64,000 bases of DNA. Source: Eubacteriaceae bacterium (GTDB lineage: Bacteria > Bacillota > Clostridia > Lachnospirales > Lachnospiraceae). Position 1 is the stretch's first letter. Every line of letters begins with the position of its first letter. Positions 14,214-64,000 of the stretch are shown one piece after another. The notes beneath the pieces were generated by a model. The model did not search any database and was not told where the DNA came from. It saw only the letters and a list, made by a program, of their open reading frames with translations. The stretch covers positions 558,001-622,000 of the forward strand of contig CAJTDQ010000001.1 of the NCBI GenBank assembly GCA_910574895.1. Reading direction: 5' to 3'. Position numbers and translations under genes: made by a program.

Positions 14214-14280
14214 ATAGTCCTCCTTATTATGCTTTTGCCCTTTCAATTTTCCTCAGGATATTATATCACAAAATAGTTAT

Positions 14281-38220: not shown

Positions 38221-38401
38221 ATGATACCTCTCACAAACTTGTATTGTATAACCTGTCTGTATTGTAACATTTTATCCAACGAAATACAAATTTATGTGAA
38301 AGTTTGTTAATTGAAGAAATACCTTTATTAATTTCCTTTTCTAATACTAGATTCCTTACATTGTTTTGAAATATGTACTAAAAAAGTTCCTCTTATATGT
38401 C

Positions 38402-38818
38402 TCAATCGTATATATAACTTACCCCATTATTATTTACAAACGTTTCTATTTCCGGTACTTTTCTCATTTTATCTGATTGGAAAATCTCTAGCTCCTTTTG
38501 AGGCATCTTGTCCAAATTATTATCATCATACTTGTGATATGTATTGTTATCATAATTAACAATTACATATTCCTGTTCTCCTCTAGCATATAACTTATTT
38601 TTCCCATCATCATAATAGGATATTATTGTTTCTATTAAATCATCATCTTTCATCTGATCGGACAAAGCATATTCCATCGGCCCTGATAATATCTGAAATC
38701 TTCCATCACCTACAACTACAAACGAGTCTCTTCCTACCGGATATTTATAATCTTCCATTCTACACCCCATTATTATAAAACAAATAAACATAAAAAATAT
38801 AAATACTCTTTTTTTCAT
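38402..38818 (-). CDS. Small lipoprotein downstream of the Rhs fragment (possible immunity protein)
   Basis: A 138-residue protein with a lipoprotein signal peptide; the lipobox IIMGC puts the lipidated Cys near residue 19. The rest is acidic and hydrophilic (YYDDGKNKLYARGEQ, YDNNTYHKYDDNN) with no recognised domain. It lies 24 bases after the Rhs C-terminal fragment on the same strand, where immunity genes are normally found in polymorphic toxin loci. A role as membrane-bound immunity protein is inference from position only. Confidence 0.65.
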   Translation of the reverse strand: MKKRVFIFFMFICFIIMGCRMEDYKYPVGRDSFVVVGDGRFQILSGPMEYALSDQMKDDDLIETIISYYDDGKNKLYARGEQEYVIVNYDNNTYHKYDDNNLDKMPQKELEIFQSDKMRKVPEIETFVNNNGVSYIYD

Positions 38819-38842
38819 TTTAAACCTCCAAAATGCTATGCT

Positions 38843-39796
38843 TTAAATTATTTTCTGCTTTTTATCCTTAAATTTCATATTTACCGTTATATTATATTTA
38901 TGACTAGCTCCTTTTACCTGTAAATACCATGCATAATTATTTGCAAACATGGTTATAGATAAATATTTTTTTTCAAATTTAAAATCATATTTATCTATTA
39001 ATTTACATGTTATTTTACCACTAAATCTATCAAATTTTAATCTAACCCTATGAAATGCTCCAAACAAATCACCTTTATTGAAGTCAATATGACATTCGCT
39101 AGCTAACTTATTTGTCTTTCTAAACCTTCTAACTTCTCGTTTTACTTTTTTATGTTTTTTTAATTTTTTTGCTAAATCAGATTTATTATCAAATTCTAAA
39201 TCATTTGGAAAAGATTGAAGCGAATGTTCAAGAAAATCTGCCGAATATTTCCAACCTTTCTTCTTTCTCAGATATAATTCTGCTCCAAGATAAGCAGGCG
39301 AATTTAATATTTTTTTTGCAAGCCAATTTGTTGTATATCTTCCAATTATGTGCATTACAATATGCCCACTCGGATCCACATAATTAACCGGATTCCCCCC
39401 ACAATACGCATACAGGTTCCATGTACCATAATCCTTCTGCTCTCCCCTGTAACTGTCCTGTGTAATAAACGTCGCCGTACCCGGATTATAATACCTCGCA
39501 TTCAGATAATACAGTCCCGTCAGCTCATCATACACACCCGACGTATAACACAGCTCATTATAAAAGTCCTCATCACCATACTTATTCGTCATTCCATAAT
39601 CATCATACCGGTAACTTACCACACCTCTTCCTGACTCATCAGCCACATTCGTTACACTCGTCCTGATATCCTTATTATAAAAGTATGCATGCTGTCCATC
39701 ATTCTCATAACGGATTGTCGCAATCACATTCTCCTGCGGTCCTATGATATTCTGGCTCGTCTTATTTCCTTTGTGCGATGGATAATACAACTGCAC
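38843..39796 (-). pseudogene. Orphan Rhs C-terminal fragment with variable toxin-like domain
   Basis: A 317-residue frame. Residues about 1-145 match the conserved end of Rhs/YD-repeat proteins, including GLYYLNARYYNPGTATFITQD and the hallmark NPVNYVDPSGH. Residues about 146-317 are an unrelated basic C-terminal domain, AT-rich at DNA level in contrast to the C-rich Rhs core. No upstream Rhs body exists: a TAA lies in frame a few codons before the first start (GTG) and 470 bases of non-coding DNA follow upstream. It is probably a displaced Rhs-CT cassette or remnant, not an intact exported toxin. The enzymatic nature of the tip is not recognised. Confidence 0.75.
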
Positions 39797-40269
39797 ATGT
39801 GCTTTTTAACATTCTTTTCTTCATTATTGTTCTCCCATTCTTTTGTTTTCTCATAGAATTTATGATTCTATGTACTTTTCCGAGTTGCCTTTCAGTGCTT
39901 TAAATATACTTTTGATATAATTTTCTCTCCCTTCTTTTTTACTTTTAAAACACTTTAATATAAAAAACCCTTATCCGCAAAGAGTCCCTGTATATACCAG
40001 AATCAATTTCCTCATATATGACTTACTCTTTTAGATAAGGGGTAATATTTCTTTGTAATTTTTATAGTTTATTTCCGTTCATCTTTTCCCCTCATAGTTG
40101 TATCTTACCAATTTCTGTATATAAATACAACTAGTTTTTAGGTTGCTTTTATAAATAATAAGGACACTAAATTTGCATTATATAAAGATTTCAAAACCTC
40201 TATATCGTACAAAATTAATGTCCTTAAAATTTTATTACATTAAATATATATTTTCTTTTCAACAAAAAA
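39797..40269. other. Non-coding gap upstream of the Rhs fragment
   Basis: No gene is visible. Two long inverted repeats are present: 39962-40044 (ACCCTTATC...GATAAGGGGT arms with extended pairing) and 40160-40225 (see separate entry). The remaining sequence is T-rich. It may be what is left after loss of the 5' part of the Rhs gene. Confidence 0.6.
40160..40225 (-). terminator. Nested hairpin after the amidase gene
   Basis: The outer arms AAGGACACTAAATTT and AAAATTAATGTCCTT, and inner arms ATATAAAGATTT and AAACCTCTATAT, form a two-stage hairpin of 66 nt. It lies about 45 bases downstream of the amidase stop codon. The T tract is weak, so terminator function is probable rather than certain. 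Confidence 0.45.
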
Positions 40270-41037
40270 CTAACTTCTAATAAATGTATTATACCCAAGC
40301 GCTCTTAATTTCTGCTCTGTTACAACAGCATTATCCAACTTTTCAAAATCTCCGACAACTACCTTATATAAATCATCCTCAGATATTACTTTTACCTGAA
40401 ATCCCTGATTTCTTAACTGTGTTGCCAGATTATCTGCAAGCTGTGCATTTCGAAATGCCCCAACCTGTACATGATAGCGTGTTCCTTCTGAAGCTGTAAT
40501 TCCATTATCACTAAGCGTGTCGATAATACCATCTGCAATTCCCTGGGCAATTTCATTAAATTTTTCATCAAATATCTGATTATCTGTCTCTGAATTTATA
40601 AAACCTGTCTCCAATAAGATTGCCGGCATTTTTGTCCTCTTTAACACTACCAGATTTGGTCTTTCCACCACACCCTTATCTTCGAATCCCAATGCCGCCA
40701 TATTTTCATTAATATTTCTGGCTAATTGTGCTTTCAGCCCTTCATCATTGTATACAAGTGTCTGATTACCACTATACATTCCGGGTATTGCAGAGGAATT
40801 TCTGTGAAAAGAGACAAACAAATCTCCTCCTGCATTATTACCAATCGTTGCCTTTTCAAATGGTGTATTATATACATCTGAAGTTCTCGTATAAACTACA
40901 TCAAATCCTGCGTTACTTAACAATTTACCCACAGCCATGGCGAGCGCTAAGGCATCATCCTTTTCCTGTCTGCCATTAAAAGTAGCTCCAGGATCGGACC
41001 CGCCATGTCCGGGGTCTATAATAATTCTATAAGCCAT
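40270..41037 (-). CDS. N-acetylmuramoyl-L-alanine amidase with SPOR domain
   Basis: A 255-residue protein. An Amidase_3 domain (about 1-175) carries the zinc ligands in IIDPGHGGSDPGA and later SFHRNS, plus the catalytic Glu in ILLETGFINSE. A C-terminal SPOR domain (about 185-255; YHVQVGAFRNAQLADNLATQL) binds denuded peptidoglycan. It cleaves the amide bond between MurNAc and the stem peptide. No signal peptide is present, so export may be non-classical, or the enzyme acts in the mother cell or spore. CAGG lies 6 bases upstream of the ATG at 41037. The architecture resembles CwlC-type mother-cell lysis amidases. Confidence 0.92.
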   Translation of the reverse strand: MAYRIIIDPGHGGSDPGATFNGRQEKDDALALAMAVGKLLSNAGFDVVYTRTSDVYNTPFEKATIGNNAGGDLFVSFHRNSSAIPGMYSGNQTLVYNDEGLKAQLARNINENMAALGFEDKGVVERPNLVVLKRTKMPAILLETGFINSETDNQIFDEKFNEIAQGIADGIIDTLSDNGITASEGTRYHVQVGAFRNAQLADNLATQLRNQGFQVKVISEDDLYKVVVGDFEKLDNAVVTEQKLRALGYNTFIRS

Positions 41038-41091
41038 ATTTACCTGATACATTCTTTATCATAACAATATATGAGTGTATCAGATAAAACA

Positions 41092-41445
41092 TTACTTATT
41101 CTTTTTATTTTTTTTCGTTGTGTTATTATTGTCGTTGTTATTATTATTATTATTATTATTATTGTTTGTGTTATTGTCATTGTCTCCATCTACATCATCT
41201 ACAATATCACTTACTCCGTCTTCAATGTCATCACCAATTTCATCGACAATACCATCATTTGTAGTATCATTTACATTTCCTGCATTTCCATTGTTGTCCA
41301 TATTATCTGTTGTGTTATCATTGACACCATTTTCTGTTGCTGACTCTGCTGTTGTTGTTTCATCTTCGTTATTTCCACAGGCTGCAAATGTAAATGTTGC
41401 AAGCATCAGTGTTAATACTAATAAGTAATTTCTTAAATGTTTCAT
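41092..41445 (-). CDS. Asn/Asp-rich small lipoprotein
   Basis: A 117-residue lipoprotein with signal peptide and lipobox (TFAAC, Cys near residue 22). The mature part is low-complexity: Thr/Glu/Asn, then Asp/Asn repeats, an unbroken Asn run of about 11 residues and a Lys-rich tail (KKNKKNK). The Asn run is encoded by a (AAT)n-type triplet array near 41135-41164 that could vary in length without frameshift. The start is ATG at 41445, preceded by GGAGG; an in-frame upstream ATG overlaps that site. No function is recognised. Confidence 0.75.
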   Translation of the reverse strand: MKHLRNYLLVLTLMLATFTFAACGNNEDETTTAESATENGVNDNTTDNMDNNGNAGNVNDTTNDGIVDEIGDDIEDGVSDIVDDVDGDNDNNTNNNNNNNNNNNDNNNTTKKNKKNK

Positions 41446-41535
41446 AATAAAATCCTCCATGATAAAATTGTCAAATGCATCTTTTGATGCAAAATCTGTA
41501 TGACTTTATTATTTTCATTTTTCAAACTTTTATAC

Positions 41536-41604
41536 AAAAAATATGGAAACCCGTTCACACAAAACATATCTCTTGTTTTCATTTAAACGAATTTCCATAT
41601 TTTT
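41536..41604 (-). terminator. Terminator hairpin downstream of dapB
   Basis: The arms AAAAAATATGGAAA and TTTCCATATTTTT form a long A/T-rich stem with pairing ACCCGTT/AACGAAT inside. It lies just after the dapB stop codon. Confidence 0.5.
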
Positions 41605-41614
41605 CACTTATTTT

Positions 41615-42370
41615 TTAATCAATAACATCTGACATATCATACATGCCCGTAGCTTTTCCTGCCAAAAACTTTGCTGCATCAATTGCCCCTTTTGCAAAAA
41701 TCGCTTTAGAATAAGCAGTATGCTTAATCTCTATAATTTCATCAGTTCCCGCATATATCACTTCATGCTCTCCAACAATCGTGCCTCCACGCACTGCGGA
41801 AAGACCAATTTCTTTCTTTCTTCGCTTTTCTCGTACTGTACTTCTATCATATGCATAATCATATTCATTATCCAATACCTGATTGATACAGTCGGCCAAT
41901 GCCAATGCTGTTCCACTCGGTGCATCCACCTTTTGGTTATGATGTTTTTCAACAATCTCTATATCAAACCCTCTGTCTGCCAACACATCTGTAGCAATTC
42001 GGAGTAATTTCATTAAAGTATTGATTCCAAGAGACATGTTTGCTGAACGTAAAACCGCAACCTTTTTACTTGCTTCATTTACTTTGTCTAACTGTTCAGC
42101 AGACAATCCTGTTGTACATACTACCACTGGTGTATTCGTACGAACAGCGTAATCCAGCAAATCATCAATTGCCGCTGTTACCGCAAAATCTATAATTGCA
42201 TCAGCCTTTATATCACAATCTGTAATCGACGAAAAAACCGGATATTCATTAGGTACTTCTGTATATGCATCAACTCCTGCTACAATCTGTACATTTTCAT
42301 CTTTACTTACAAGGTCTGTAATAACTCTTCCCATCTTGCCATTACATCCATGCATAATTATATTAACCAT
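41615..42370 (-). CDS. dapB: 4-hydroxy-tetrahydrodipicolinate reductase
   Basis: A 251-residue enzyme of lysine/diaminopimelate synthesis that reduces the DapA product with NAD(P)H. The nucleotide-binding motif is HGCNGKMGR at the N-terminus. The catalytic signature is EIVEKHHNQKVDAPSGTA (His-His and Lys), and the C-terminal motif is HTAYSKAIFAKGAI. The start ATG at 42370 follows AAGGAGG; an upstream in-frame ATG is not supported. It lies 119 bases downstream of dapA in the lysine-riboswitch operon. Confidence 0.96.
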   Translation of the reverse strand: MVNIIMHGCNGKMGRVITDLVSKDENVQIVAGVDAYTEVPNEYPVFSSITDCDIKADAIIDFAVTAAIDDLLDYAVRTNTPVVVCTTGLSAEQLDKVNEASKKVAVLRSANMSLGINTLMKLLRIATDVLADRGFDIEIVEKHHNQKVDAPSGTALALADCINQVLDNEYDYAYDRSTVREKRRKKEIGLSAVRGGTIVGEHEVIYAGTDEIIEIKHTAYSKAIFAKGAIDAAKFLAGKATGMYDMSDVID

Positions 42371-42489
42371 CTTTTCCTCCTTGTGAGTCATAGAGATAAA
42401 CACTCATTTCATATACTCTGAATTGAAAATTATGTTTTTACTCTTTCCTCTGAATGTTCTCAAAAACATTTTTACCTATAATCGTAAAT

Positions 42490-43816: not shown

Positions 43817-45022
43817 TTATTTAACAATATCCTTTTTCATATTATCCTTCTGCTCAACTTGCTTATTATCTTGATACCCCTCTGGAATTCCCAATTTCTG
43901 ATATAACTTTCCTAAACCGGTTAATTTTCCTGTATAAGTATCTAATAATGCTGAACCACTATTTTTAAAATCAGATTTACTAAAAGAAAACCATGAATAC
44001 CGCTCTACGTAATCACGCTTATCTAACTCCGGCAGAACTATTTTCATATAATTAATAGCGGACTGCCTTGTCTGTTTAGTCCAATCCGGAACACCACTCA
44101 GTGCAAACTCTGTAATCCATATTGGTTTGTGATACATTTCCCATGATTCGTCCACAATTTTTAAAAATGCTTCCGCCCCCTCTTTCGTATGCCAATTCCA
44201 ATAATGATGCAACGCAATAAAATCTACATCCATCTTGTTTTCTTTCATCTTTTTCATAAATGGCTGAAACCAGTCTGTAGAAATAGACGGCCATATAGAT
44301 ACCGCAGGACTCCCCACTCGTATTCCTTTATTCAACAACGGTTTCATTCCTTCTATAGCAGTATCCACCGAAATATTCGCCTGATCCGGTCTGTCTGGTT
44401 CATTAAAAGCTAACACATTTTTATACCCTCTTTTCGGAAGAACTTCCACCTCATTTTTATCTGTAGGTGCCGATGTCCAAAACATAGGAACAAACTCCAA
44501 ATCTTGAAAGGATGTATAGTTATGTTTGCTCAAACTCCAATTATAATACCATGAAACATTCCAATCGTCTGCATTCACATTCGAAGCCATATCTGTATTC
44601 ATACAGAAACCTTTTTTATTTACATAAAAATAAAATATATCTGAGTAAATCTCACTTCCCTGTTTCAAATTCGCTTTAATAGCAACTTCATGTCTCGAAA
44701 CCTTTGTTGTATAGTATTCAAACGTAGTTTTATTGCCTGGTACTTTACCTTCTTTTTTATTATTTACATATATTTCATAAGAATCTACATCATCCATTTT
44801 CTCAGCAGAATTCCATTCGATAGTGATATAACCAGCCGGCTGTAAACTAAGTTTTGCAGGTGAAATCAGCGCCTCTTTCTTCCACTGTTCTTTTAATTGA
44901 TTAATATTTGATATACGATTATTCTTTGAAATATTAACCGCTGCTATCATTCCAATTAAAATTAACGCTAATAATATTGTTGCTACGATTACTGCTAATT
45001 TATTTCTTTTAATATTCTTCAT
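43817..45022 (-). CDS. GH128-like glycosidase, membrane-anchored or secreted, short form
   Basis: A 401-residue paralog of the 12 kb glycosidase. An N-terminal hydrophobic segment (about 8-30) lacks a clear cleavage site, so it may be an anchor. The shared N-terminal domain (about 55-145) ends FYVNKKG. The catalytic domain follows with FNEPD (acid/base Glu) and WITEFALSG (nucleophile Glu). It lacks both the F5/8C domain and the cationic Fn3 tail found in most paralogs. It ends in a polar tail. It is separated from the upstream paralog by a terminator, so it is transcribed alone. Beta-1,3-glucan as substrate is inferred from GH128. Confidence 0.78.
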   Translation of the reverse strand: MKNIKRNKLAVIVATILLALILIGMIAAVNISKNNRISNINQLKEQWKKEALISPAKLSLQPAGYITIEWNSAEKMDDVDSYEIYVNNKKEGKVPGNKTTFEYYTTKVSRHEVAIKANLKQGSEIYSDIFYFYVNKKGFCMNTDMASNVNADDWNVSWYYNWSLSKHNYTSFQDLEFVPMFWTSAPTDKNEVEVLPKRGYKNVLAFNEPDRPDQANISVDTAIEGMKPLLNKGIRVGSPAVSIWPSISTDWFQPFMKKMKENKMDVDFIALHHYWNWHTKEGAEAFLKIVDESWEMYHKPIWITEFALSGVPDWTKQTRQSAINYMKIVLPELDKRDYVERYSWFSFSKSDFKNSGSALLDTYTGKLTGLGKLYQKLGIPEGYQDNKQVEQKDNMKKDIVK

Positions 45023-45063
45023 GCTTATTCCATTCCTATCTATATTTCTCTTGTCTAATATAA

Positions 45064-45095
45064 CAAAAGAAAAGGGTCTTTTACAACCCTTTTCT
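45064..45095 (-). terminator. Terminator downstream of the glycosidase at 45110
   Basis: On the minus strand AGAAAAGGGT and ACCCTTTTCT form a 10-bp stem around an 8-base loop, followed by TTTTG. It lies just after the stop codon. Confidence 0.75.
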
Positions 45096-45109
45096 CCTCT
45101 ATAAAAATA

Positions 45110-46585
45110 TTATTTTTTCACCTTCACATTTTTCGCTTTGCTCCACGCACCATAAAGTTTTTTTCTTCCATTTTTTACATAAGCCCTAACTTTAAAATAA
45201 TAACGTATATTTTTATCCAACTTTTTAAATGTATAAGATGTTTTCTTTATATTTTTATTCCAGTATCCATTAAACTTCTTATTTTCAGCAATTTTAACCT
45301 GATATCCAACTGCTCCTTTTACCTTCTTTAAAGAAAGCTTTATCTTTCTTCCTTTTAGATTTTTAACGGATTTTATCTTTACCTTAGCTGGTTTTGTTAT
45401 TTTAGTAACATTTGTTGTACTAGAAGGTTTATATGGATTTACAGCATTTCCTGTTTTATATTCTGTTGTAGGGTTGCCATATGTTACATAAGCTTTTCCT
45501 AAATCAGTTAATACTCCATTATAATACCATAATGCGGAGGCTCCACTCTCACTACTTGCGTCAAAAGAAAACCATGAATATCTCTCAACATAATCTCTGC
45601 TGTCCAATCCTGCAATTGCTGTTTTCAGAAATTCTTCAACAGATTTTCTTTTACTTGTATCATTAAACTTCCATTTACTTACCGCAAACTCTGTAATCCA
45701 GATTGGCTTATGATACATTTCCCATGTTGCATCTACTACCTCTTTTAAAAATGTATTTGCTCCAGCTGCACCACCATAGTTATCATAATAACAATGTAAA
45801 GGAATAACATCAATAGTATTTGTGTCAATTTTACTCATAAATGTACGAAACCACGTACCACTATTCCACGATGGACTAAGTGCCGGTGCCGGTGCTCCTA
45901 AATGATAACTATTTCCCAAAAACTTATTCCAATTAGCAATTGCTGTATTCACATTGACATTGCTACCACCAATATAATTTCCATATTTATCCCGCATAGG
46001 CATATCCGGCTCATTATATGCCAACAAATATTTATAATTCTTGTTTGCAATAGAAGGTATACTTCCTTCGTTTCCAGCTCCCCAGATCATTGGTACAAAC
46101 TCTATCTTAGAATATGTAGTATATGAAAAGGGGTTTGTTCCCCATGAGTAATACCAGCCCATATTCATAGCAACTGGATCCAGATTTTTTCCCATTCCAT
46201 CATTAACACATAATCCTTTTTTCGTAACACCAAACTTTACTGTAGGGGTATAAACTTTTTTTCCATTGTTCAACTCTGCCTCAATCCAAGCCGAATGATA
46301 ATTTACTTTTGTTGTATAGAACTCATACTTTGTAGATGTAGTGGTAGCTTTTAGACTGCCATCCACGTACACCTTGTAATTTTTCACTCCACTTTTATCA
46401 GATGCTGGATTCCACTTAATATCCATGTAGCCTGCACCTTTCATTGTATTATTCACAGGACTAGTAATTACAAATGCAGTATCTGCAAAAACGTCGACTA
46501 CTCCGTCTTCCCCATTCCATATATTTAATGATAATGATATTATCAAAATCATTATTATTCCAATAAATTGTCTAACCCTTTTCAT
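45110..46585 (-). CDS. Secreted GH128-like glycosidase with cationic Fn3-like tail
   Basis: A 491-residue exported paralog. The signal peptide spans about 1-36, the shared N-terminal domain about 37-125 (EFYTTKVNYHSAWIEAELNN, ending FGVTKKG). The catalytic domain (about 128-380) has YNEPDMPM and WITEFAVSKW with the two Glu residues. The C-terminal module (about 398-491) is Fn3-like and extremely Lys-rich. It is closest to the catalytic domain of the protein at 12048 (MNMGWYY.WG, GAPAPA.SPSW, CYY..YGGAAGA). It lies 13 bases downstream of the next paralog, so the two are co-transcribed. Secreted beta-1,3-glucanase is the best inference. Confidence 0.8.
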   Translation of the reverse strand: MKRVRQFIGIIMILIISLSLNIWNGEDGVVDVFADTAFVITSPVNNTMKGAGYMDIKWNPASDKSGVKNYKVYVDGSLKATTTSTKYEFYTTKVNYHSAWIEAELNNGKKVYTPTVKFGVTKKGLCVNDGMGKNLDPVAMNMGWYYSWGTNPFSYTTYSKIEFVPMIWGAGNEGSIPSIANKNYKYLLAYNEPDMPMRDKYGNYIGGSNVNVNTAIANWNKFLGNSYHLGAPAPALSPSWNSGTWFRTFMSKIDTNTIDVIPLHCYYDNYGGAAGANTFLKEVVDATWEMYHKPIWITEFAVSKWKFNDTSKRKSVEEFLKTAIAGLDSRDYVERYSWFSFDASSESGASALWYYNGVLTDLGKAYVTYGNPTTEYKTGNAVNPYKPSSTTNVTKITKPAKVKIKSVKNLKGRKIKLSLKKVKGAVGYQVKIAENKKFNGYWNKNIKKTSYTFKKLDKNIRYYFKVRAYVKNGRKKLYGAWSKAKNVKVKK

Positions 46586-46598
46586 TTTTTACCTCAAA

Positions 46599-48179
46599 TT
46601 ATTTCTTCTTTGATTTCTTTTTAGTTTTTTTCTTTTTAATAGCAGACTTGGTTTTTACTTTTTTCGCCTTTGTCCACTTGCAATAATACTTCGTTCCATT
46701 AAGAACTTTATATGCACGAACTCTAACATAATATGTTCTTTTCTTTTTATCAAGTTTCTTAATTGTTCCTGTTCTCGTTGCAGCCTTTGTTGCTTTTAAG
46801 TTGACTGTCTTTGTCTTATATTTTTTAGCTTTTTTAAATTTCTTATTTAAAGAATACTGCAACTGATAACCTGAAGCTCTTTTTACCGCTTTAAAAGAAT
46901 ATCCAAATGCCTTTTTCTTTGATGTAAGACTATAGATTTTTGTATCTACAGCTGCTACACACGCAGCAATGGATGTATTTTTTGCAATTGAAGAACTTAC
47001 ACTATATGTGCGATTGTTGTAGCCTGCAGGGTTTCCTATATTTGCATAAATCTGTCCTAATGCTGTAATCTCTCCAGAATAATGGAAAATACCAGAAGCT
47101 CCTGTCACATCATCCTTTGGATTAAAATCAAACCATGCGTATCTTTCTACATAACTTCTTTCATTCAATCCTTTTAAAACAATCTTCATAAACTCTTGTA
47201 CCTGAGCATTATGTTTTGCATTTGTTGGACTAAATTTATTATAACTATCTGCAACAGCAAATTCTGTCACCCAGATAGGCTTATGATACTTTGCATATAT
47301 TTCATCAATTGCATGTAAATATTGTAATGCTGTATCTGCGTTGTCATAATAATGCTGATATGCATGTACTGCAATAAAAGACATATCATTTTTTTCTGTA
47401 ACAGTTAATCCATTCCAGAATGGTGTCCACCATTTATCTGAATTTATTTGGAATGTTTCTGTAGCTGGAGAACCAAGACGAATGCTTCCTTTATTTTCTC
47501 TAAACATATTCCATCTTGATATCATTGTTCCCGGATCTGTATTTGATTCCCATTTCAAGTCTGGCTCATTATAGGATAACATATATTTATATCCATTGCT
47601 CTTTACCCTATTAAAAATGGTTGAAAACTCTTCGTTTGGATCTCCCCAAATCATTGGAACAAATTCTAAATCATAAAACTTTTTATTACTAAAATTAGTT
47701 TCTTTAAATGATTTTGACCCCCAATTATAGTACCAACCTATATTCATAGCTGCCGGATCAACCTTTGTCCCCATATCTTTGTCATTTACACAAACGCCCT
47801 TTTTCGTCACATAAAATGTACGTGTATCTGTTTTAACACTAGAACCATCTTTCAAGTCTGCCACAATATATGTATTGTGAGCACTTACCTTGGTAGTATA
47901 AAATTCAATACTCATAGTTTCACCACTTGGTAAAAGAGTCTTCTTTAATACACCATCCACAAAAATTTTATACTGCTTTACATTTTCTAAAGTATTATTC
48001 CATTTTATATCTATATAACCAGCACCTACTAATTTCTTTTCAGTTGGACTTACAATGGCTTTTTTCTGCCATGTTACTGCATCATCCGCTTTTACTGATA
48101 CATTTGATATAACCGTAAGACACGAAAACATCATTACCACAACCAACACCATGGACACTAATTTCTTTATTTTTCCCAT
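46599..48179 (-). CDS. Secreted GH128-like glycosidase with cationic Fn3-like tail
   Basis: A 526-residue exported paralog. Signal peptide about 1-30, shared N-terminal domain about 40-130 (EFYTTKVSAHNTYIVADLKD). The catalytic domain shows NIGWYYNWG, SYNEPDLKW and WVTEFAVADS. The C-terminal Fn3-like domain (about 425-526) ends in a long run of Lys (KKKKTKKKSKKK). ATG at 48179 has GGAGG upstream. It is the first gene of a pair with the glycosidase at 45110. Both catalytic Glu are present, so it should be active. Confidence 0.8.
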   Translation of the reverse strand: MGKIKKLVSMVLVVVMMFSCLTVISNVSVKADDAVTWQKKAIVSPTEKKLVGAGYIDIKWNNTLENVKQYKIFVDGVLKKTLLPSGETMSIEFYTTKVSAHNTYIVADLKDGSSVKTDTRTFYVTKKGVCVNDKDMGTKVDPAAMNIGWYYNWGSKSFKETNFSNKKFYDLEFVPMIWGDPNEEFSTIFNRVKSNGYKYMLSYNEPDLKWESNTDPGTMISRWNMFRENKGSIRLGSPATETFQINSDKWWTPFWNGLTVTEKNDMSFIAVHAYQHYYDNADTALQYLHAIDEIYAKYHKPIWVTEFAVADSYNKFSPTNAKHNAQVQEFMKIVLKGLNERSYVERYAWFDFNPKDDVTGASGIFHYSGEITALGQIYANIGNPAGYNNRTYSVSSSIAKNTSIAACVAAVDTKIYSLTSKKKAFGYSFKAVKRASGYQLQYSLNKKFKKAKKYKTKTVNLKATKAATRTGTIKKLDKKKRTYYVRVRAYKVLNGTKYYCKWTKAKKVKTKSAIKKKKTKKKSKKK

Positions 48180-48222
48180 ATTTATTTCCTCCATACTATA
48201 ATATTATCAACAAATTGTTATG

Positions 48223-48270
48223 TAAAAAAGGGCAGAATAAGTTATATCAATATAACCCTTTCTACCCTTT
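48223..48270 (-). terminator. Terminator downstream of the jelly-roll protein at 48296
   Basis: On the minus strand AAAGGGTAGAAAGGGTTATA pairs imperfectly with TATAACTTATTCTGCCCTTT, followed by TTT. Confidence 0.65.
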
Positions 48271-48295
48271 CAATTAAAATGTTATATGCATATCA

Positions 48296-49606
48296 TTATT
48301 TAATAAATGCATTCTTCTTTACAGTCTTCTTGCTATAAACTCTCTTACCAGCTGAATCAATATTGTAAGCCTTAATTTGGAAATATGTCTTCTTTCCTGA
48401 TTTTAACTTCTTGATTGTAAGGCTCTTCTTTGTTGTTCTTTTAACTTTAGCTTTCTTCATATTCTTCTTATTAGAATACTTAATTTCATATCCTTTAGCA
48501 TTAGCAAGTTTACTAAATGTCAATTTAGCTTTCTTCTTCTGAGCTGCAACTTTAACTTTTACCTTACCTGGTTTCTTTGTAGCTGTGTAAACGCATTTAA
48601 GAGTCAAATTGCTTCTTACTGGTGTACTAAGATTAAAATTAGCACCTGTTGAAGCATTCTTATATCCTGTTAATGTCTTACCTTTTATACCAAAGTTATG
48701 ACCTGAAGTTTTATCACCTGAATTTACATATTCTGTATATGATTTACTTCCATATGTGTACTTAACCGCATACTGTGCACCAGCCTTAATCTGAATATCA
48801 CTAAAGAATAAGCTTCCACTCATTGCAATTTCATCTGGATATGTCTTTAAGAACGCTCCACATGCAAAATTGAGTGCTACTACCGTACCATCATATGTTT
48901 TTGGTACTAAAATCTTTGCTGTAACAGTCTTTTCTCCTGTAGCTGAATCAGTCTCAATCATACCACCTACTGTACAGCCTGATGTCGATGTAAATGCTAC
49001 TCCCGGTTCCCCTGGTGCTGTAGGATTATATGCTTTAAACAAAATATGCTTCTTAGTAATAGTATTTTTAACTACATTACCAGCTTCATCTTTTACTTCA
49101 TTTCCTGCCTCATCTTTTACTGTTACATTTGCTTTTAATGTACTTCTAACTTTAAAAGAAATATCATATGTTCTACCTTTTTCTACTGGAAATCCACTAG
49201 ATAAAAGTCTAAGACCATACGGATTATCTCCTGCCAGCTCTCCTGTCATAGGATTGTATTCACCATCCCATCCACTGTTGCCAACCCAAAATTCTACTGC
49301 TGAAGATGTTGCTCCTTTTACAACATAGCCCTTTGTAGCAAAGTCTTTTCCTTCTACCTGACCATCTGGATATTCAGCAGTATTGATATGTGTTAATGAA
49401 TGATACCAGCACCATGGATGTGCTTTTGAGCCATCTTCTCCTGCTACATGGTCTTCCTGTGTACAGATTGAAAACGATGTCCATTTAATACTTGTTGCAA
49501 CATTTGCACCGTTTGCAGCATGTGCAGCAAATACGCTACTTGTCATACCAACCACTAACGTCAGTGACAAAAAAGAAGCCACAATCTTTTTTGTGATTTT
49601 TTTCAT
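48296..49606 (-). CDS. Secreted jelly-roll (CBM-like) protein with InlB-type repeat and Fn3-like tail
   Basis: A 436-residue exported protein. Signal peptide about 1-30. A beta-rich domain (about 35-275) resembles carbohydrate-binding modules of the CBM4/9 kind (KGRTYDISFKVRS, GSLFFSDIQI). An InlB_B/Flg_new-like repeat follows (about 278-345; YGSKSYTEYVNSGD), then a Lys-rich Fn3-like module. No catalytic residues are evident. AGGAGG precedes the ATG. It lies between GH128-like genes, so it probably binds the same polysaccharide. CBM assignment is by pattern only. Confidence 0.72.
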   Translation of the reverse strand: MKKITKKIVASFLSLTLVVGMTSSVFAAHAANGANVATSIKWTSFSICTQEDHVAGEDGSKAHPWCWYHSLTHINTAEYPDGQVEGKDFATKGYVVKGATSSAVEFWVGNSGWDGEYNPMTGELAGDNPYGLRLLSSGFPVEKGRTYDISFKVRSTLKANVTVKDEAGNEVKDEAGNVVKNTITKKHILFKAYNPTAPGEPGVAFTSTSGCTVGGMIETDSATGEKTVTAKILVPKTYDGTVVALNFACGAFLKTYPDEIAMSGSLFFSDIQIKAGAQYAVKYTYGSKSYTEYVNSGDKTSGHNFGIKGKTLTGYKNASTGANFNLSTPVRSNLTLKCVYTATKKPGKVKVKVAAQKKKAKLTFSKLANAKGYEIKYSNKKNMKKAKVKRTTKKSLTIKKLKSGKKTYFQIKAYNIDSAGKRVYSKKTVKKNAFIK

Positions 49607-49637
49607 TATATGTATTCCTCCTAATATCTTTAACTAA

Positions 49638-49670
49638 ACAGTAACCCAATGCATTCGCATTGGGCACTGT
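49638..49670. terminator. Hairpin between two jelly-roll protein genes
   Basis: ACAGTAACCCAATGC and GCATTGGGCACTGT form a long stem with a minor bulge around a 4-base loop. The T tract is poor. It lies downstream of the gene at 49699 and may terminate or stabilise its mRNA. Confidence 0.5.
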
Positions 49671-49698
49671 AAATTATTATTAAATAAATTAACAATTA

Positions 49699-50811
49699 TT
49701 ATTTAACTTTTACTTTCTTTGTAGCCCAAGCAGATGTCTTGTATCCAGCAGCTTTAGCACGTACCTTAACAACTACTTTTCCTTTTTTAACTTTCTTAAC
49801 TGTTAATTTAACTTTTTTAGTATTATAAGTCTTCTTACCAACTTTAACCTGATATTTCTTAGCATTCTTTACTTTTTTCCAAGTAATCTTTACTGTTCCT
49901 TTTTTCTTGCTAACAGCTTTAAGTTTTTTAACTTTTGCTAATTTCTTAGCCTGAACTGCAGGTGTAGTAGGTTTTACTGTTGGCTTAACTGTTGGCTTTG
50001 TTGGATTATCTGTTCCTGGTGTATCTGGCTTTGTTGTAACATCTGGTTCTGGTGGTAGAACAAACTCTGGGTTCTCACCATTATCTGTAATTGAAAAATC
50101 ACTTACAGTTACAGTACCACTCCAACCATTTTCAACTGCTGTAATAATATTAGATACATCATTTCCTGCATAATCATATTGTGCATCAAATGCACCAAAC
50201 ATCAATGTTGTTGTAAGTTTCTTTGCTGATACCCAGTTTGTAAATGTGTATGTAAATGTCTTATCTGTTGTTCCTAAAGTAATAAGCGTATTATCACCTT
50301 GAACCGGATCCTGATCATATGGAGTTGTTCCTTCTACATCACAACCAAATGCTACATAACCAAATTTTGCTTTTGTTGCACGAGCTTTAAAAGAAACTGT
50401 ATAAATATGACCTGGTATAATGTTAACCTGATCCATTAATGCCTGTATTGACCATGGATTTATTCTTACTGGACTTTCTGCCCACTGAGCATCCCAACCT
50501 GTGTTTGCTATATCAATAGCAAAACCTGTTGCATCTGTTGTTGCTTTCTTGGTCTGGTTAACTGATGCTTCTCCACCTTTAAGCCATCCACCAACTGTTT
50601 CATCTGTTCCATTCATTTTTACTGAATTAATGTAACCTTCATTACCAGGTTCACTCGGATTGTACTGACCGCCCTGAACAAATGTCCACTTCTGAAGTGC
50701 TACTGTCTCAGCAGCCTTTACTGATTTTGTAACATTCATTCCAACGAATAGTGCAGCAACTAACGCTACTGTAGTAATTCCTGCTAATGCCTTGTTGAAA
50801 ATCTTTCTCAT
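49699..50811 (-). CDS. Secreted jelly-roll (CBM-like) protein with Fn3-like tail
   Basis: A 370-residue exported protein. Signal peptide about 1-33. A beta-rich domain (about 35-250) contains WKTF-type openings (LQKWTFVQGGQYN), PGHIYTVSFKARATK and SGTVTVSDFSITDNG, the typical end of CBM4/9-like sandwiches. A Pro/Thr linker (about 252-285; KPTVKPTVKPTTP) leads to a highly Lys-rich Fn3-like module (about 290-370). ATG at 50811 is 8 bases after GGAGG; the TTG two codons upstream is too close. It probably binds carbohydrate next to the glycosidases. Confidence 0.75.
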   Translation of the reverse strand: MRKIFNKALAGITTVALVAALFVGMNVTKSVKAAETVALQKWTFVQGGQYNPSEPGNEGYINSVKMNGTDETVGGWLKGGEASVNQTKKATTDATGFAIDIANTGWDAQWAESPVRINPWSIQALMDQVNIIPGHIYTVSFKARATKAKFGYVAFGCDVEGTTPYDQDPVQGDNTLITLGTTDKTFTYTFTNWVSAKKLTTTLMFGAFDAQYDYAGNDVSNIITAVENGWSGTVTVSDFSITDNGENPEFVLPPEPDVTTKPDTPGTDNPTKPTVKPTVKPTTPAVQAKKLAKVKKLKAVSKKKGTVKITWKKVKNAKKYQVKVGKKTYNTKKVKLTVKKVKKGKVVVKVRAKAAGYKTSAWATKKVKVK

Positions 50812-51185
50812 TTTCAATTCCTCCTCTAAAAATTTTTTTCATCACTTGAAAACACTCATTTTCAATTACGTTTATTATATCATAAACGTTTTTATAATAC
50901 AATCTGTAAATGTATTTTTTTCACAAATAAAACTCTTTTTATTTTAAATTAGTGTATATTTTTCACATAAACTACACAAAAAGAAATTTTTCTATTATAT
51001 AAATTGTTAATAGAATGCTTAATTATCTTTCTTTTTTTAAATAATTGAATATATTTCTATAAATTTTGGAAATTAATATATTACTTTTATAAAGTTTTCT
51101 TTAACTTATTCAAATTCATCATACTAAACATAAAAAGCACCTGTTTCTAACAGATACTTTTTATATTTACTATCACATCATGCAA
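50812..51185. other. AT-rich intergenic region
   Basis: No gene is visible. The region holds the promoter side of the gene at 49699 and the terminator of the gene at 51186. The middle part (about 50900-51110) is strongly AT-rich with no structure that I can support. Confidence 0.6.
51131..51160 (-). terminator. Terminator downstream of the glycosidase at 51186
   Basis: On the minus strand AAGTATCTGTT and AACAGGTGCTT form an 11-bp stem (two G-U pairs) around a 3-base loop, followed by TTTTT. Confidence 0.8.
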
Positions 51186-52883
51186 TTATTTCTTAATTTT
51201 TACACTTTTTATATTTGACCATTTTCCATTTCCTATTTTATTCACTGCCCTTACTCTGAAATAATATTTTTTCTTTTTTATAAGCTTAGCAATTTTTAGT
51301 GTAGTCTTTTTTGTAGTCTTTCTCTTTAGTTTCTTAGTAAATTTTTTATTCATGGCATATTGCACTTGATATTTAGTCGCACCAGAAACTTTCTTCCATG
51401 TTAGTTTAACTGATCTTTTCTTAACATTTTGAGCCTTACTTAATTTCGCCTTTACTGGCTTTACCATTTTCTTAGTTACCGGAACAACAGTTGTAACCGG
51501 GTTCTTTATATCCGGCTGTTGTACTGTTGTTGTAACAGGTTCTTTTGTAGTATTCTCTTCTGGTACATACACAAACATTTCATCATCGCTAATCGTCTCA
51601 GTTTTATATCCCTCAGGATTTCCAATTGAAGAATATAATCTTCCAAGTTCTGTATATGCTCCTGATGCATATTCAAACATAGCCGTAGCTCCTGAACCAT
51701 TAAAAACATCAATTTCATTTGTACTATCGATATCATATGAGAACCAGCAGTATCTTTCTACATAAGGAATAGCATCAAGTTTCTCCACTATACCTTTTAC
51801 AAATTCCGCCATAGCTGCTCTCTTTTCCGGAAGTTCATAGCTGTGATCAGTATCTAATCCCTTTATTCCAAAAATAGACAATTCTGTAACCCAAATAGGT
51901 TTATGATAGGTTTCCCACAGATTTTTTATTGCAGCAATCAGACCATCCAAATTAATTTGATTTCTGTAATAGTGCAAAACAACTGCATCCACTTCATTTC
52001 CCATGCCTTCAACCCATGTTTTTGTTTCATCATCTAAATAGTCTGAATATAATCCCCAAGTTCCATCCCAAGGATTCCTACATTTATACCCACCATTCAT
52101 AAATAGCTTAAGCCAACCAGAATCTCCTCCCGGCGCAGCTGGTGCAGGCGATACTTTTCTCATTTTTAAAGGAGATATATATTCTTTCCATGTTTCAATG
52201 CCTTCAAAAAAGAACATATCCGCTTGAGTCTTAATATCCGGTTCATTAAATCCTAAAATGTAGTTTGCAGTGCTAGTCATATCTGCCATGGCTTCTTTAT
52301 TATCATCTGCTCCTCCCCACATCATAGGAATATGTGCAACACCTTCATCTATACTATTATTAAAAGCATCTGTAGCCCAATTATAATACCATGAACAATT
52401 AAGTTTTTTCAATGAAACTTTGTCACTCATATCACCTCCTAATGCCATGCCTTTTTTGGAAACATAAAAAGTACGTTTTTCTGAAATCCGTTCCTCTACT
52501 CCATTATCAGCTTTCACAATAAGTTCATGTTTACTGACAGTTGTTGTATAAACTTCTGTTTTACCTGCATCTTTTGATGTATATGTTTTAACTTTTGCTT
52601 CATCTGTAATTTTTTCACCAATTTCAGTTCGTACAATATTATTACCAATCCAATACACCGGTTGTCCATCAAGATAGACTGTATATGTATATCCTTCCAT
52701 GGAATTGTCAAATTCTACATCAATATAACCTGCTCCTACCAACTGCCCTTCTGCCGGAACGGTAATCGCTGTGCTACCCCATTGATTTTCTTCTGCATTA
52801 ACCTTTGTTACAGTAATATGATTAAACGAAATCACCGAAAATACTAATGCAATTGATAAAAAAATTGATACTAATTTTTTCAT
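51186..52883 (-). CDS. Secreted GH128-like glycosidase with cationic Fn3-like tail (divergent paralog)
   Basis: A 565-residue exported paralog. Signal peptide about 1-30. The N-terminal domain (about 35-150) is longer than in the others but keeps EVYTTTVSKHELIVKA and FYVSKKG. The catalytic domain has GFNEPDIKTQ and WVTELSIFG; note TELS in place of TEFA around the nucleophile Glu. A Thr/Pro linker (about 440-470) leads to an Fn3-like Lys-rich module. AGGAGG precedes the ATG. It is the most divergent copy and may act on a different linkage or substrate. Confidence 0.78.
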   Translation of the reverse strand: MKKLVSIFLSIALVFSVISFNHITVTKVNAEENQWGSTAITVPAEGQLVGAGYIDVEFDNSMEGYTYTVYLDGQPVYWIGNNIVRTEIGEKITDEAKVKTYTSKDAGKTEVYTTTVSKHELIVKADNGVEERISEKRTFYVSKKGMALGGDMSDKVSLKKLNCSWYYNWATDAFNNSIDEGVAHIPMMWGGADDNKEAMADMTSTANYILGFNEPDIKTQADMFFFEGIETWKEYISPLKMRKVSPAPAAPGGDSGWLKLFMNGGYKCRNPWDGTWGLYSDYLDDETKTWVEGMGNEVDAVVLHYYRNQINLDGLIAAIKNLWETYHKPIWVTELSIFGIKGLDTDHSYELPEKRAAMAEFVKGIVEKLDAIPYVERYCWFSYDIDSTNEIDVFNGSGATAMFEYASGAYTELGRLYSSIGNPEGYKTETISDDEMFVYVPEENTTKEPVTTTVQQPDIKNPVTTVVPVTKKMVKPVKAKLSKAQNVKKRSVKLTWKKVSGATKYQVQYAMNKKFTKKLKRKTTKKTTLKIAKLIKKKKYYFRVRAVNKIGNGKWSNIKSVKIKK

Positions 52884-53006: not shown

Positions 53007-53636
53007 CTAATCCTCAATATATTCTAATTTACTTACTGACACTTCATAGGCTACATGCTTTTCACTTTCTTCGTCATTTATTTTTTTCACATACTCGCGA
53101 CTCTGTACTCTTCCCCATATCTGTACATGTCCTCCTACTTCAAAAGTGGATGCATATCTGGCATTTCTTCCCCATGCAATACATGGAATATAATCAGATT
53201 TACCATATGGTCTGTTAACTGCAATCAGTAAATCTGCAATTTCTCTTCCTAATGGCGTTTTTCTATATATAGGTGATTTACATATATATCCATCAAGAAA
53301 AATTTGATTGGTCTTTCCTACCTCTAGATTCTCTTCTACTTCTTCCCATTCTCTAACAAATATTGAAAGCACTAATTTATTCTTTGTTCCCTCATGACGA
53401 TTATAAGATCTAAACTGACCTGATACCTCTACTAATCTTCCCTGATAATCTTCATTAATATCAACTAGACGCTCTGAAACCATTAATGGAATTATATCTG
53501 TTAATTCACTTAAGCGATCCACAGATACATCTACTATGTAGAACCCTTCACCAAAAACTTCATGGCTGAATCTGAATTCTGAAACAATTTCCCCTATAAT
53601 ACTTACTCTGTTGTTTTCAATAACTTTGTCAATCAT
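53007..53636 (-). CDS. Single-stranded DNA-binding-like protein with two OB-fold regions
   Basis: A 209-residue protein with two SSB-like OB regions: about 7-110 (NNRVSIIGEIVSEFRFSHEV) and about 112-209 (NQIFLDGYICKSPIYRKTPLGREIADLLIAVNR). The second part shows the SSB pattern IPCIAWGRNARYAS...GGHVQIWGRVQSREY. The typical acidic C-terminal tail of housekeeping SSB is missing, so it is an accessory protein. AAAGGGGG precedes the ATG. It lies among secreted protein genes but has its own terminator. The double-OB form is common in Lachnospiraceae, to my knowledge. Confidence 0.82.
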   Translation of the reverse strand: MIDKVIENNRVSIIGEIVSEFRFSHEVFGEGFYIVDVSVDRLSELTDIIPLMVSERLVDINEDYQGRLVEVSGQFRSYNRHEGTKNKLVLSIFVREWEEVEENLEVGKTNQIFLDGYICKSPIYRKTPLGREIADLLIAVNRPYGKSDYIPCIAWGRNARYASTFEVGGHVQIWGRVQSREYVKKINDEESEKHVAYEVSVSKLEYIED

Positions 53637-53770
53637 TGTATTTCCCCCTTTACCATACTTTGGTTTATTATTTTTTTATCATTATAATTATACTCTATTT
53701 TTCCCAAAATATGTAAAAAATCGTTCGACCTATATCGACTTTTCTCGTCTTTTCGGATTGAATGTATAAT

Positions 53771-53913
53771 AACTTTTTCTTCGCGTCTGCCTTATTGATT
53801 ACTTTCGTAATCAATAAGCATGCGTACATTTTCTATCCTATATTTCTTCTTTTACTTTTTCTTCGCGTCTGCCTTATTGATTACTTTCGTAATCAATAAG
53901 CACGCGTACATTC
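53771..53913. repeat. Two direct copies of a GC-rich REP-like hairpin repeat
   Basis: The 59-base unit starting ACTTTTTCTTCGCGTCTGCC occurs at 53771-53829 and 53855-53913 with one or two differences. Each copy contains the hairpin CTTATTGATTAC-TTTC-GTAATCAATAAG and ends CGCGTACATT or TGCGTACATT. The second copy runs into another palindrome, GCGTACATTCG-T-CGAATGTACGC (about 53904-53926). Confidence 0.85.
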
Positions 53914-53929
53914 GTCGAATGTACGCTAC

Positions 53930-53991
53930 ATAGCCAAAAGACAGGCATAACTCCATGCGAGCATGGGTTATGCCTGTCTTTTGGCTATGTA
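53930..53991 (-). terminator. Very long hairpin downstream of the jelly-roll gene at 54019
   Basis: ACATAGCCAAAAGACAGGCA continues into TAACTCCATGC and pairs almost perfectly with the downstream GCATGGGTTATGCC and TGTCTTTTGGCTATGT, a stem of about 28 bp with a short loop. It probably ends the transcript of the gene at 54019. The unusual length, and adjacent REP-like repeats, suggest a composite repetitive element. Confidence 0.7.
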
Positions 53992-54018
53992 TAGCCGCTC
54001 GACTCATTGTCTACGCGA

Positions 54019-54891
54019 TTATTTTTTAACTTTTACAGTTTTCTTTGCTGACCAAGCACCTACTGCACCTGACTTGCTTACTGGTGCAACCTGTACTTTT
54101 ACTTTCTTTCCAGCTTTTGCTTTTACTGTAACTGTAGTTTTTTTAGTAGTTGTTGTCTTTGAACCAACTTTTACTTTATACTTAGCTGCTCCATCAGCCT
54201 TTGCAATAGTTACTTTAACTTTGCCCTTCTTAGGTGATTTAACTTTTTTAACTTTTGCTTCACCTAAAACAGCAAACTTAGAAACAGTAATATCTATTGA
54301 TGCTGTTGAATCTCCATTAGCATCTTCTGCAGCTAATGTTGATTGTCCGTTCTTTTTGAACTGCTTTGTAAATGCTGCATATCTGATAGCTGCATCTACA
54401 TCATCTGCTGTATCTTCTCTGTTACCAAAGTCTCCACCTAAACCAAAGTAAATAGTACTTGCATTTGCTTTTGCCTTAAATGTTTTGTTAAACTTAACTG
54501 TCTTACCTGGTGTTAACTTAACCCATGTTGAGTAAGCTAATGTTTCACCTTCAGAGATTTTCACATAAACATATTTCTGTACGTTTGTACCTTTTGCTGT
54601 AAATGTAAGTGTGTATTTCTTACCTTTCTTTACAGATACTTTTCCAGATGTGTTCTGTTTCTGATCCATGAATACCTGAGCTCCCCAGACACCACCCCAG
54701 CCTACTGTAGCCATCTTTGCTGTAAATCCATCAGCCTTATTTGCTGTAAGCTGTCCTTCTGCTCCTTCATACCATCCTGCTGAAGCTCCAAAATAACTTC
54801 CCCATGTAGCACCAAAACATGTTGTTCCCATAGCTACTACAAGAGTAAGAGCCATGATTGATGCCGCAATTTTTTTTGCCAATCTTCTCAT
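54019..54891 (-). CDS. Secreted jelly-roll (CBM-like) protein with Fn3-like tail
   Basis: A 290-residue exported protein. Signal peptide about 1-27 ending in CFGA. A beta-rich domain (about 28-210) begins TWGSYFGASAGWYEGAEG and includes VKKGKKYTLTFTAKGT and ITVSKFAVLGE, as in CBM4/9-like modules. A Lys/Val-rich Fn3-like module follows (about 212-290; GKVKVTIAKADGAAKYKVKVG). No catalytic residues. AGGAGG precedes the ATG. Related in design to the proteins at 48296 and 49699. The likely role is carbohydrate binding at the surface. Confidence 0.74.
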   Translation of the reverse strand: MRRLAKKIAASIMALTLVVAMGTTCFGATWGSYFGASAGWYEGAEGQLTANKADGFTAKMATVGWGGVWGAQVFMDQKQNTSGKVSVKKGKKYTLTFTAKGTNVQKYVYVKISEGETLAYSTWVKLTPGKTVKFNKTFKAKANASTIYFGLGGDFGNREDTADDVDAAIRYAAFTKQFKKNGQSTLAAEDANGDSTASIDITVSKFAVLGEAKVKKVKSPKKGKVKVTIAKADGAAKYKVKVGSKTTTTKKTTVTVKAKAGKKVKVQVAPVSKSGAVGAWSAKKTVKVKK

Positions 54892-63085: not shown

Positions 63086-64000
63086 TTAAGGTATCATCCT
63101 GAAACTAACCGGTTTCACAATTGGTGACCAGTCTTTGTCAATATATTTATAATCCGGTTGAACCTTCGTCAATATCTTGTCATAAAGATAATCATGCTCT
63201 GCTTTAGTGCTCATAATTCTATTATCATACATATAACTTGCCACATCAAACACACTAAAGTTTACCAGCTTACTATATACATATGTTCCATCTTCCAAAA
63301 CTGCATAAGCTCTAACCTTATATTTCGCAGTATATGCACTGACTGTAAAAGCACCAAACTTCATAACTCTTGCATAATTTGTTGCCGTCTCAGATTCTGA
63401 ATACTTATCCTGTAATGTACCACTTGCAGTTGACTGATATGCTTTTACATAATAGTTATCTCCTCTTACAAAAACATCATCATCCACAACACCTGTATCT
63501 TTGCCATTTACATTTGCAAGGGCATATATAAATCCCCAACTCTTAACTTTCTGGTTGTTAATTGTATCTTCTACAGAACCTACGACTCTGAATCCTTCAT
63601 GTGCTACGCTGATCTGATATCCTTCTACATTAATATTAGAATTTATATTAATATTCTTCTTCATAACAGCAATTTCTGATAACTGATATCCCCATGTACA
63701 GTTTCCACCTGTAAGATTTACCTGCACATACCTTACTGTTTCCTTAGAATAATTGCTGACATCAACTTTATCTTCTAAAGCCTCTTTGTATGCAACATCT
63801 GTTTTTTCCAGTACTTTCTCATAATTTGTTCCATCCTCAGAGAACTGAACATTGTAATCTGTTGCATTGGTGTTATCAGCCTTAAATGCCATAATGATTT
63901 CGTCAATCATATTCTTACTGATATTCTTTCCTAAATCAATTGTAATTGTTGCTTTTTTCTCACCCCATAATGTTTCCACAACATTACCTAGATTTGTGGA
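63086..64000 (-). CDS. C-terminal part of a secreted protein related to the 12 kb glycosidase (runs off window)
   Basis: The frame is open to the window edge; the first 304 codons seen belong to the C-terminus. Residues about 1-120 resemble an F5/8C-like domain (KATITIDLGKNISKNMIDEI, VRYVQVNLTG). The last 185 residues (from GYQISVAHEGFRVVGSVED) align well with the C-terminal domain of the protein at 12048: SWGFIYAL/NWGFVYGL, YSESETATNYAR/YGQSDTATYFAR and SKLVNFSVFDVA/SDVAEYTVYDVA. It is probably another glycosidase or surface protein of this group. The catalytic region is outside the window. Confidence 0.75.
   Translation of the reverse strand, partial: STNLGNVVETLWGEKKATITIDLGKNISKNMIDEIIMAFKADNTNATDYNVQFSEDGTNYEKVLEKTDVAYKEALEDKVDVSNYSKETVRYVQVNLTGGNCTWGYQLSEIAVMKKNININSNINVEGYQISVAHEGFRVVGSVEDTINNQKVKSWGFIYALANVNGKDTGVVDDDVFVRGDNYYVKAYQSTASGTLQDKYSESETATNYARVMKFGAFTVSAYTAKYKVRAYAVLEDGTYVYSKLVNFSVFDVASYMYDNRIMSTKAEHDYLYDKILTKVQPDYKYIDKDWSPIVKPVSFRMIP

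Follow-up and report, generated by a model that had tools for sequence, protein, structure and literature searches.

Beta-1,3-glucan, a polymer that occurs in material from fungi, algae and plants, has immune effects in hosts. The GH128 enzyme 6uaq, which we take to belong to subgroup I of the family, is among the described proteins that come closest to the genes analysed here. Tandem GH161 and GH94 enzymes act sequentially on beta-1,3-oligosaccharides according to PMC6484121, and PMC8100471 cites earlier work in which the fibronectin(III)-like (Fn3-like) module of CbhA exfoliates cellulose. We analysed a window of 64,000 nt (positions 558,001-622,000, forward strand, of contig CAJTDQ010000001.1, assembly GCA_910574895.1) in which four GH128 paralogues and two CBM4-like proteins stand in a compact, conserved group and provide candidate enzymes and binders for testing. 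Protein families, conserved catalytic residues, two domain folds, gene order and pathway genes, all established by computation, argue that this array serves extracellular beta-1,3-glucan degradation, a reading to which we assign a probability of about 85%. The GH128 family and both module folds are already known; what is new is the conserved six-gene array in an apparent beta-1,3-glucan specialist.

Organization of the GH128 Array

Six genes, all on the minus strand, fill positions 43817-52883. A sequence-only reading of this DNA had counted four complete paralogues here and a fifth near 12048, and all five open reading frames are indeed present on the minus strand. The reading had placed the fifth copy at 12048-14213; the frame itself stands, but 14213 is an in-frame ATG lying 11 codons into a TTG-started frame that ends at 14246. 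It had also described the interval as a GH128 cluster, which is accurate for the four copies but overlooks two further genes between the third and the fourth (48296-49606 and 49699-50817), whose products have no glycosidase match in a Pfam scan. Paralogue A (43817-45022) consists of an N-terminal hydrophobic stretch beginning at residue 11, a Big_7/Fn3-like domain and a GH128 domain, without a C-terminal module; B (45110-46585) and C (46599-48194) share a layout of Big_7/Fn3-like domain, GH128 domain and lysine-rich Fn3-like C-terminus; and D (51186-52883) combines a Big_7/Fn3-like domain carrying an insertion with GH128 and an Fn3 C-terminus. In the fifth copy (12048-14246), the Big_7/Fn3-like and GH128 domains are followed by an F5/8C domain (F5_F8_type_C, 79.4 bits) and an unnamed C-terminal region. 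The two noncatalytic array proteins join a CBM4-like fold (48296-49606) or a CBM4/9-like part (49699-50817) to a lysine-rich Fn3-like C-terminus, and a small CBM_4_9-like protein (54019-54891, minus strand; 18.8 bits, under the cut-off of 25.9), encoded past an SSB-like gene, is possibly related to the array.

Transcription of the array may break up into several units, with hairpins at 45098-45065 and 49665-49644 as possible division points. Promoter-like sites (63 vs. 68.5 in shuffles) and terminator-like sites (7 vs. 5.2) do not rise above shuffled sequence, and we therefore propose no operon for the array. Neither a transporter nor a regulator was found among the scanned neighbours (36175-42403 and 53007-54891), and an NCBIfam search with the array products returned nothing informative. 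Elsewhere in the window, two large BspA-type leucine-rich-repeat proteins are encoded side by side (15167-16717 and 16777-21969), one of which has Big_2 domains, while its neighbour matches CBM96 at 30.8 bits (cut-off 26).

Catalytic Domains

GH128 membership was assigned with the PF11790 profile at its curated cut-off of 21 bits, which all five window copies exceed (A, 159.8; B, 153.9; C, 147.6; D, 130.5; and the fifth copy, 163.9 bits), bearing out the family assignment that had been made from the letters of the sequence. The two glutamate motifs that had been named, NEPD and W[IV]TE[FL], likewise occur in all five. For the two copies searched against solved structures, the closest entries are 6uaq and its mutants (E 9.2e-28 and 3.6e-31), followed by 6uax (E 5.3e-14 and 3.7e-22). 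In the alignments of copy B, NEPD lies opposite NAPD of 6uat and TEF opposite TQY of 6ufl, and the two glutamates are thus the same as those mutated by the depositors.

To collect relatives, we used two peptide patterns derived from GH128, one spanning the WYY.W motif, and the resulting 133 sequences were reduced to 71 at 75% identity and to 67 once four short ones had been dropped. An Asn, both Glu, a His and a Tyr are identical in 67/67 aligned sequences, the five window copies among them, and match N167, E168, H245, Y247, and E272 of CBM6E by motif and spacing (PMC10956234). A Tyr and a Trp near these catalytic-type residues vary, being kept in 62/67 and 61/67, respectively.

The N-terminal Domain

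The shared N-terminal stretch that had been pointed out is alignable in all five copies, at pairwise identities of 25-47%. Its extent had been given as roughly 90 residues ending in a KKG motif; the domain is real, but KKG aligns with the first GH128-domain residues of PDB 6uaq, which leaves an extra domain of ~85 residues. Its status as an unnamed family is ruled out both by Big_7 (PF17957), which matches 34/67 N-terminal domains at E ≤ 0.1, and by its Fn3/Ig-type beta-sandwich fold, for which the nearest structure is the CbhA Fn3-like module. The sequence-only reading as a whole is partly supported. Among the five window copies, Big_7 exceeds its cut-off only in B (25.0 bits; cut-off 24.1), and the N-terminal alignment, used as a profile against the PDB, produced weak Fn3 and chitinase-A-type matches only.

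Since the relatives were gathered with GH128-based patterns, the link between this domain and GH128 is biased within that set, and a whole-genome search with the N-terminal profile is the less biased test. In the source genome, which encodes seven PF11790 proteins, six of them with the domain, this search found six strong places, each in a GH128 protein, and a weaker tier of 13 places (E 1.3e-5 to 0.05) in other long frames. Across the order, the profile occurs in 4/295 genomes, the source genome counted and the match in G262 being weak; in G299 and G131, it directly adjoins a GH128 match.

We suggest that the domain would act as a structural or chain-presenting module. That it is instead a true glucan-binding module seems doubtful to us: the cellulose exfoliation ascribed to its nearest fold (PMC8100471) speaks for binding, whereas its invariant residues, P11, G20, and Y38, look like fold residues.

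Conservation and Divergence of the Paralogues

PF11790 matches all 23 genus genomes searched (118 rows, one of them a 30-bit fragment); two or more rows fall within 9.5 kb in 22/23 and three or more in 20/23, and G015 has a single row. Order-wide, the profile reaches E ≤ 0.001 in 23/295 genomes and more than 100 bits in four, the source genome counted. We compared seven loci, each from a different one of the other 22 genus genomes and selected for clustered GH128 rows. At least five array genes are present in the same order in all seven, and all six are present in three (L083, L085, and L086); B is missing from L084, A from L087 and L088, and D from L089, and the contig of L088 runs out within D. 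An additional CBM4-like gene is present in some of these loci. In all seven, the array is flanked by homologues of 41615 (DapB by Pfam) and 42490, and a homologue of 54019-54891 lies close to it in six, the seventh locus stopping at its contig end.

A quick tree with SH-aLRT support and without bootstrap resolves A (5 rows), C (13 rows) and D (15 rows) as clades with support of 100 each. Clade B (10 rows, support 86) includes the 12048 copy, which groups with B at forks of 80-86 inside a 26-row set supported at 99 and shares 66% identity with B over the GH128 part. A recent expansion is ruled out, as identity over domain and core is 65-71% between example orthologues of the array copies, against 32-42% in the GH128 part among the array paralogues, and as A, C, and D form clades with full SH-aLRT support. 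Old GH128 paralogues in a fixed array offer a way to ask about the division of labour on one polymer.

This divergence raises the alternative that the linkages attacked differ among the four array paralogues (e.g., mixed-linkage beta-1,3/1,4-glucan or branched fungal glucan) and that strict beta-1,3 specificity fails for some of them. The low identity among the paralogues, the well-supported separate clades of A, C, and D and the insertions carried by D are compatible with such a split; however, the five catalytic-type residues are the same in every aligned sequence, and no more than seven ungapped positions combine conservation of at least 85% within each clade with a difference between clades. 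We consider different linkages improbable and retain beta-1,3-glucan as the probable common substrate.

C-terminal Modules and CBM4-like Proteins

The C-terminal ends differ among the copies as had been described: there is none in 43817, a lysine-rich, Fn3-like end in 45110, 46599, and 51186, and F5/8C followed by an unnamed region in 12048. Pfam fn3 exceeds its cut-off (25) only in D (41.4 bits), with B at 24.2 bits and C without an fn3 row; the last 90 aa of B have a pI of 10.7, and C matches a module profile at E 1.9e-13. That profile, built from B, D, 48296, 49699, and two other source-genome GH128 proteins, matches 60 places in the source genome, among which its six source sequences count by construction; a few frames hold two. 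In the 59 matches examined (one row with an inner stop was left out), a stop codon follows within 10 residues of the module in 52 and within 16 in 54, and none falls within 50 residues in five. The matches have pI values of 9.5 to 11.9, mostly with 30-40% Lys and a pI near 11. At E ≤ 1e-10, and when up to 17 candidates were scored in each genome, the module occurs in 11/295 genomes of the order, the source genome counted, and is thus not specific to this genus.

We tentatively propose, while regarding it as the less probable outcome, that this is a general noncovalent surface-retention module that would hold secreted enzymes and binders on the anionic envelope, making the array a surface coat that digests beta-1,3-glucan. 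If so, the display of dozens of secreted proteins by such a bacterium would have an explanation. Literature searches, which covered titles and abstract openings and few subscription papers, gave no description of either the basic module or the array among the matches listed. For the unnamed C-terminal part of the fifth GH128 (12051-12614, minus strand), Pfam gives no match at E ≤ 1; this part recurs in the frame at 63086-63979 and in nine open reading frames of fetched loci (two with identical scores), one of which is a GH55-GH128 fusion (L068).

Both noncatalytic array proteins are predicted to adopt the CBM4 jelly-roll fold, and both score under the CBM_4_9 cut-off of 25.9 (48296, 17.0 bits; 49699, 17.1 bits). 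Among relatives, the best CBM_4_9 E-value is 0.0019 for the 48296 family and 1.5e-9 for the 49699 family, in which 13/25 aligned members match. CBM4 structures are also found with the 49699 family profile, which ranks 3p6b first among them (E 0.00024) and places xylanase CBM4 modules above 1gui, the CBM4 module of laminarinase 16A. 1gui is the nearest structure to the 48296 model; the sequence evidence for CBM4 in this protein is weak, and a PDB profile search with its family returned mainly contactin Fn3 rows covering its C-terminus.

A Probable Beta-1,3-glucan Pathway in the Source Genome

Elsewhere, the source genome encodes a 1566-residue protein (L103:4535-9235, contig C1, minus strand) that combines GH55 (4pew, E 8.4e-130) with GH128 (6uaq, E 1.1e-39), a weak F5/8C match and a basic C-terminal module, and that lacks the N-terminal domain. 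GH55 homologues were found in 19 open reading frames of the fetched loci, this protein counted: 15 are fused with GH128, in Lachnospirales-type loci and one Streptomyces locus, and four occupy the frame directly upstream of GH128 (three loci titled Erysipelotrichaceae, Stoquefichus or Thomasclavelia and one Faecalibacillus). On contig C2, GH161 (9qqk, E 2.5e-242) adjoins a GH94 close to the laminaribiose phosphorylase 6ggy (1059.5 bits), at a locus that also holds LacI, GH16, and an ABC permease. A DUF5696 protein encoded near this locus (L110:12010-14547) is possibly part of an uptake or surface system. GH16 occurs in ten open frames of the source genome and GH3 in one. The main GH161 match has at least 78% identity in 21/23 genus genomes, being weak only in G016 and absent in G013, and GH94 is strong in 21/23, being weak only in G015 and absent in G013. 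G013 (91% complete) has three GH128 rows and neither phosphorylase, which speaks against a strict link between GH128 and the phosphorylases.

That the enzymes mainly remodel the bacterium's own beta-1,3-glucan, in a capsule or biofilm, rather than serve nutrition is very improbable: GH128 does persist in every genus genome, even those of 1.1-1.6 Mb (some incomplete), and in G013 without phosphorylases, but the source genome also contains GH161, GH94, GH55, and ten GH16 frames, which point to food use.

We hypothesize that the array is the secreted front end of beta-1,3-glucan utilisation in a probable gut Lachnospiraceae-type bacterium. The four diverged GH128 endo-beta-1,3-glucanases would cleave glucan outside the cell while the two CBM4-like proteins grip or loosen it, the lysine-rich Fn3-like C-termini may retain proteins at the envelope, and the products would be imported and cut by the GH161 and then the GH94 phosphorylases. 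The substrate, the endo action and the import of products are inferred, the substrate with high confidence from its context; the parts played by the N- and C-terminal modules and by the CBM4-like proteins are likewise inferred and less certain. The beta-1,3-glucan reading draws on the GH128 scores, the catalytic residues, the GH55-GH128 protein, the GH94 and GH161 locus and the proximity of the 48296 model to a laminarinase CBM4. Counting against it are G013, the missing N-terminal domain of the GH55-GH128 protein, the lack of a transporter among the scanned neighbours, the hairpins that may divide the array, the weak sequence evidence for CBM4 in 48296 and the ranking of xylanase CBM4 modules above 1gui. 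The probable gut genus appears equipped throughout for beta-1,3-glucan.

Comparison with Known Systems

The window copies have in common with 6uaq and its mutant chains the catalytic core, both Glu motifs and the His and Tyr positions; they add the N-terminal Big_7/Fn3-like domain and, in three array copies, the lysine-rich Fn3-like C-terminus, and four diverged copies stand in one array. The fibronectin(III)-like modules of Clostridium thermocellum CbhA (3pdd and 3pdg), the nearest fold to the N-terminal domain at ~20% identity, sit in a family 9 glycoside hydrolase, whereas the domain described here sits in GH128 proteins. The CBM4 of laminarinase 16A (1gui) shares 15% identity with 48296, with 3k4z and 3p6b (cellulase CBM4) tied within 1 Z, and is a module of its enzyme, whereas the CBM4-like unit of the array is a free-standing protein. 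The tandem GH161-GH94 loci described in PMC6484121 likewise have GH161 beside GH94, with GH16 and an ABC permease near; here, that locus lies on a different contig from the GH128 array. CBM6E of Saccharophagus degradans (GH128-CBM6), as presented in PMC10956234, likewise brings GH128 and a noncatalytic beta-sandwich module to bear on beta-1,3-glucan, but it carries its CBM6 in the same chain, whereas the CBM4-like domains of the array are separate proteins.
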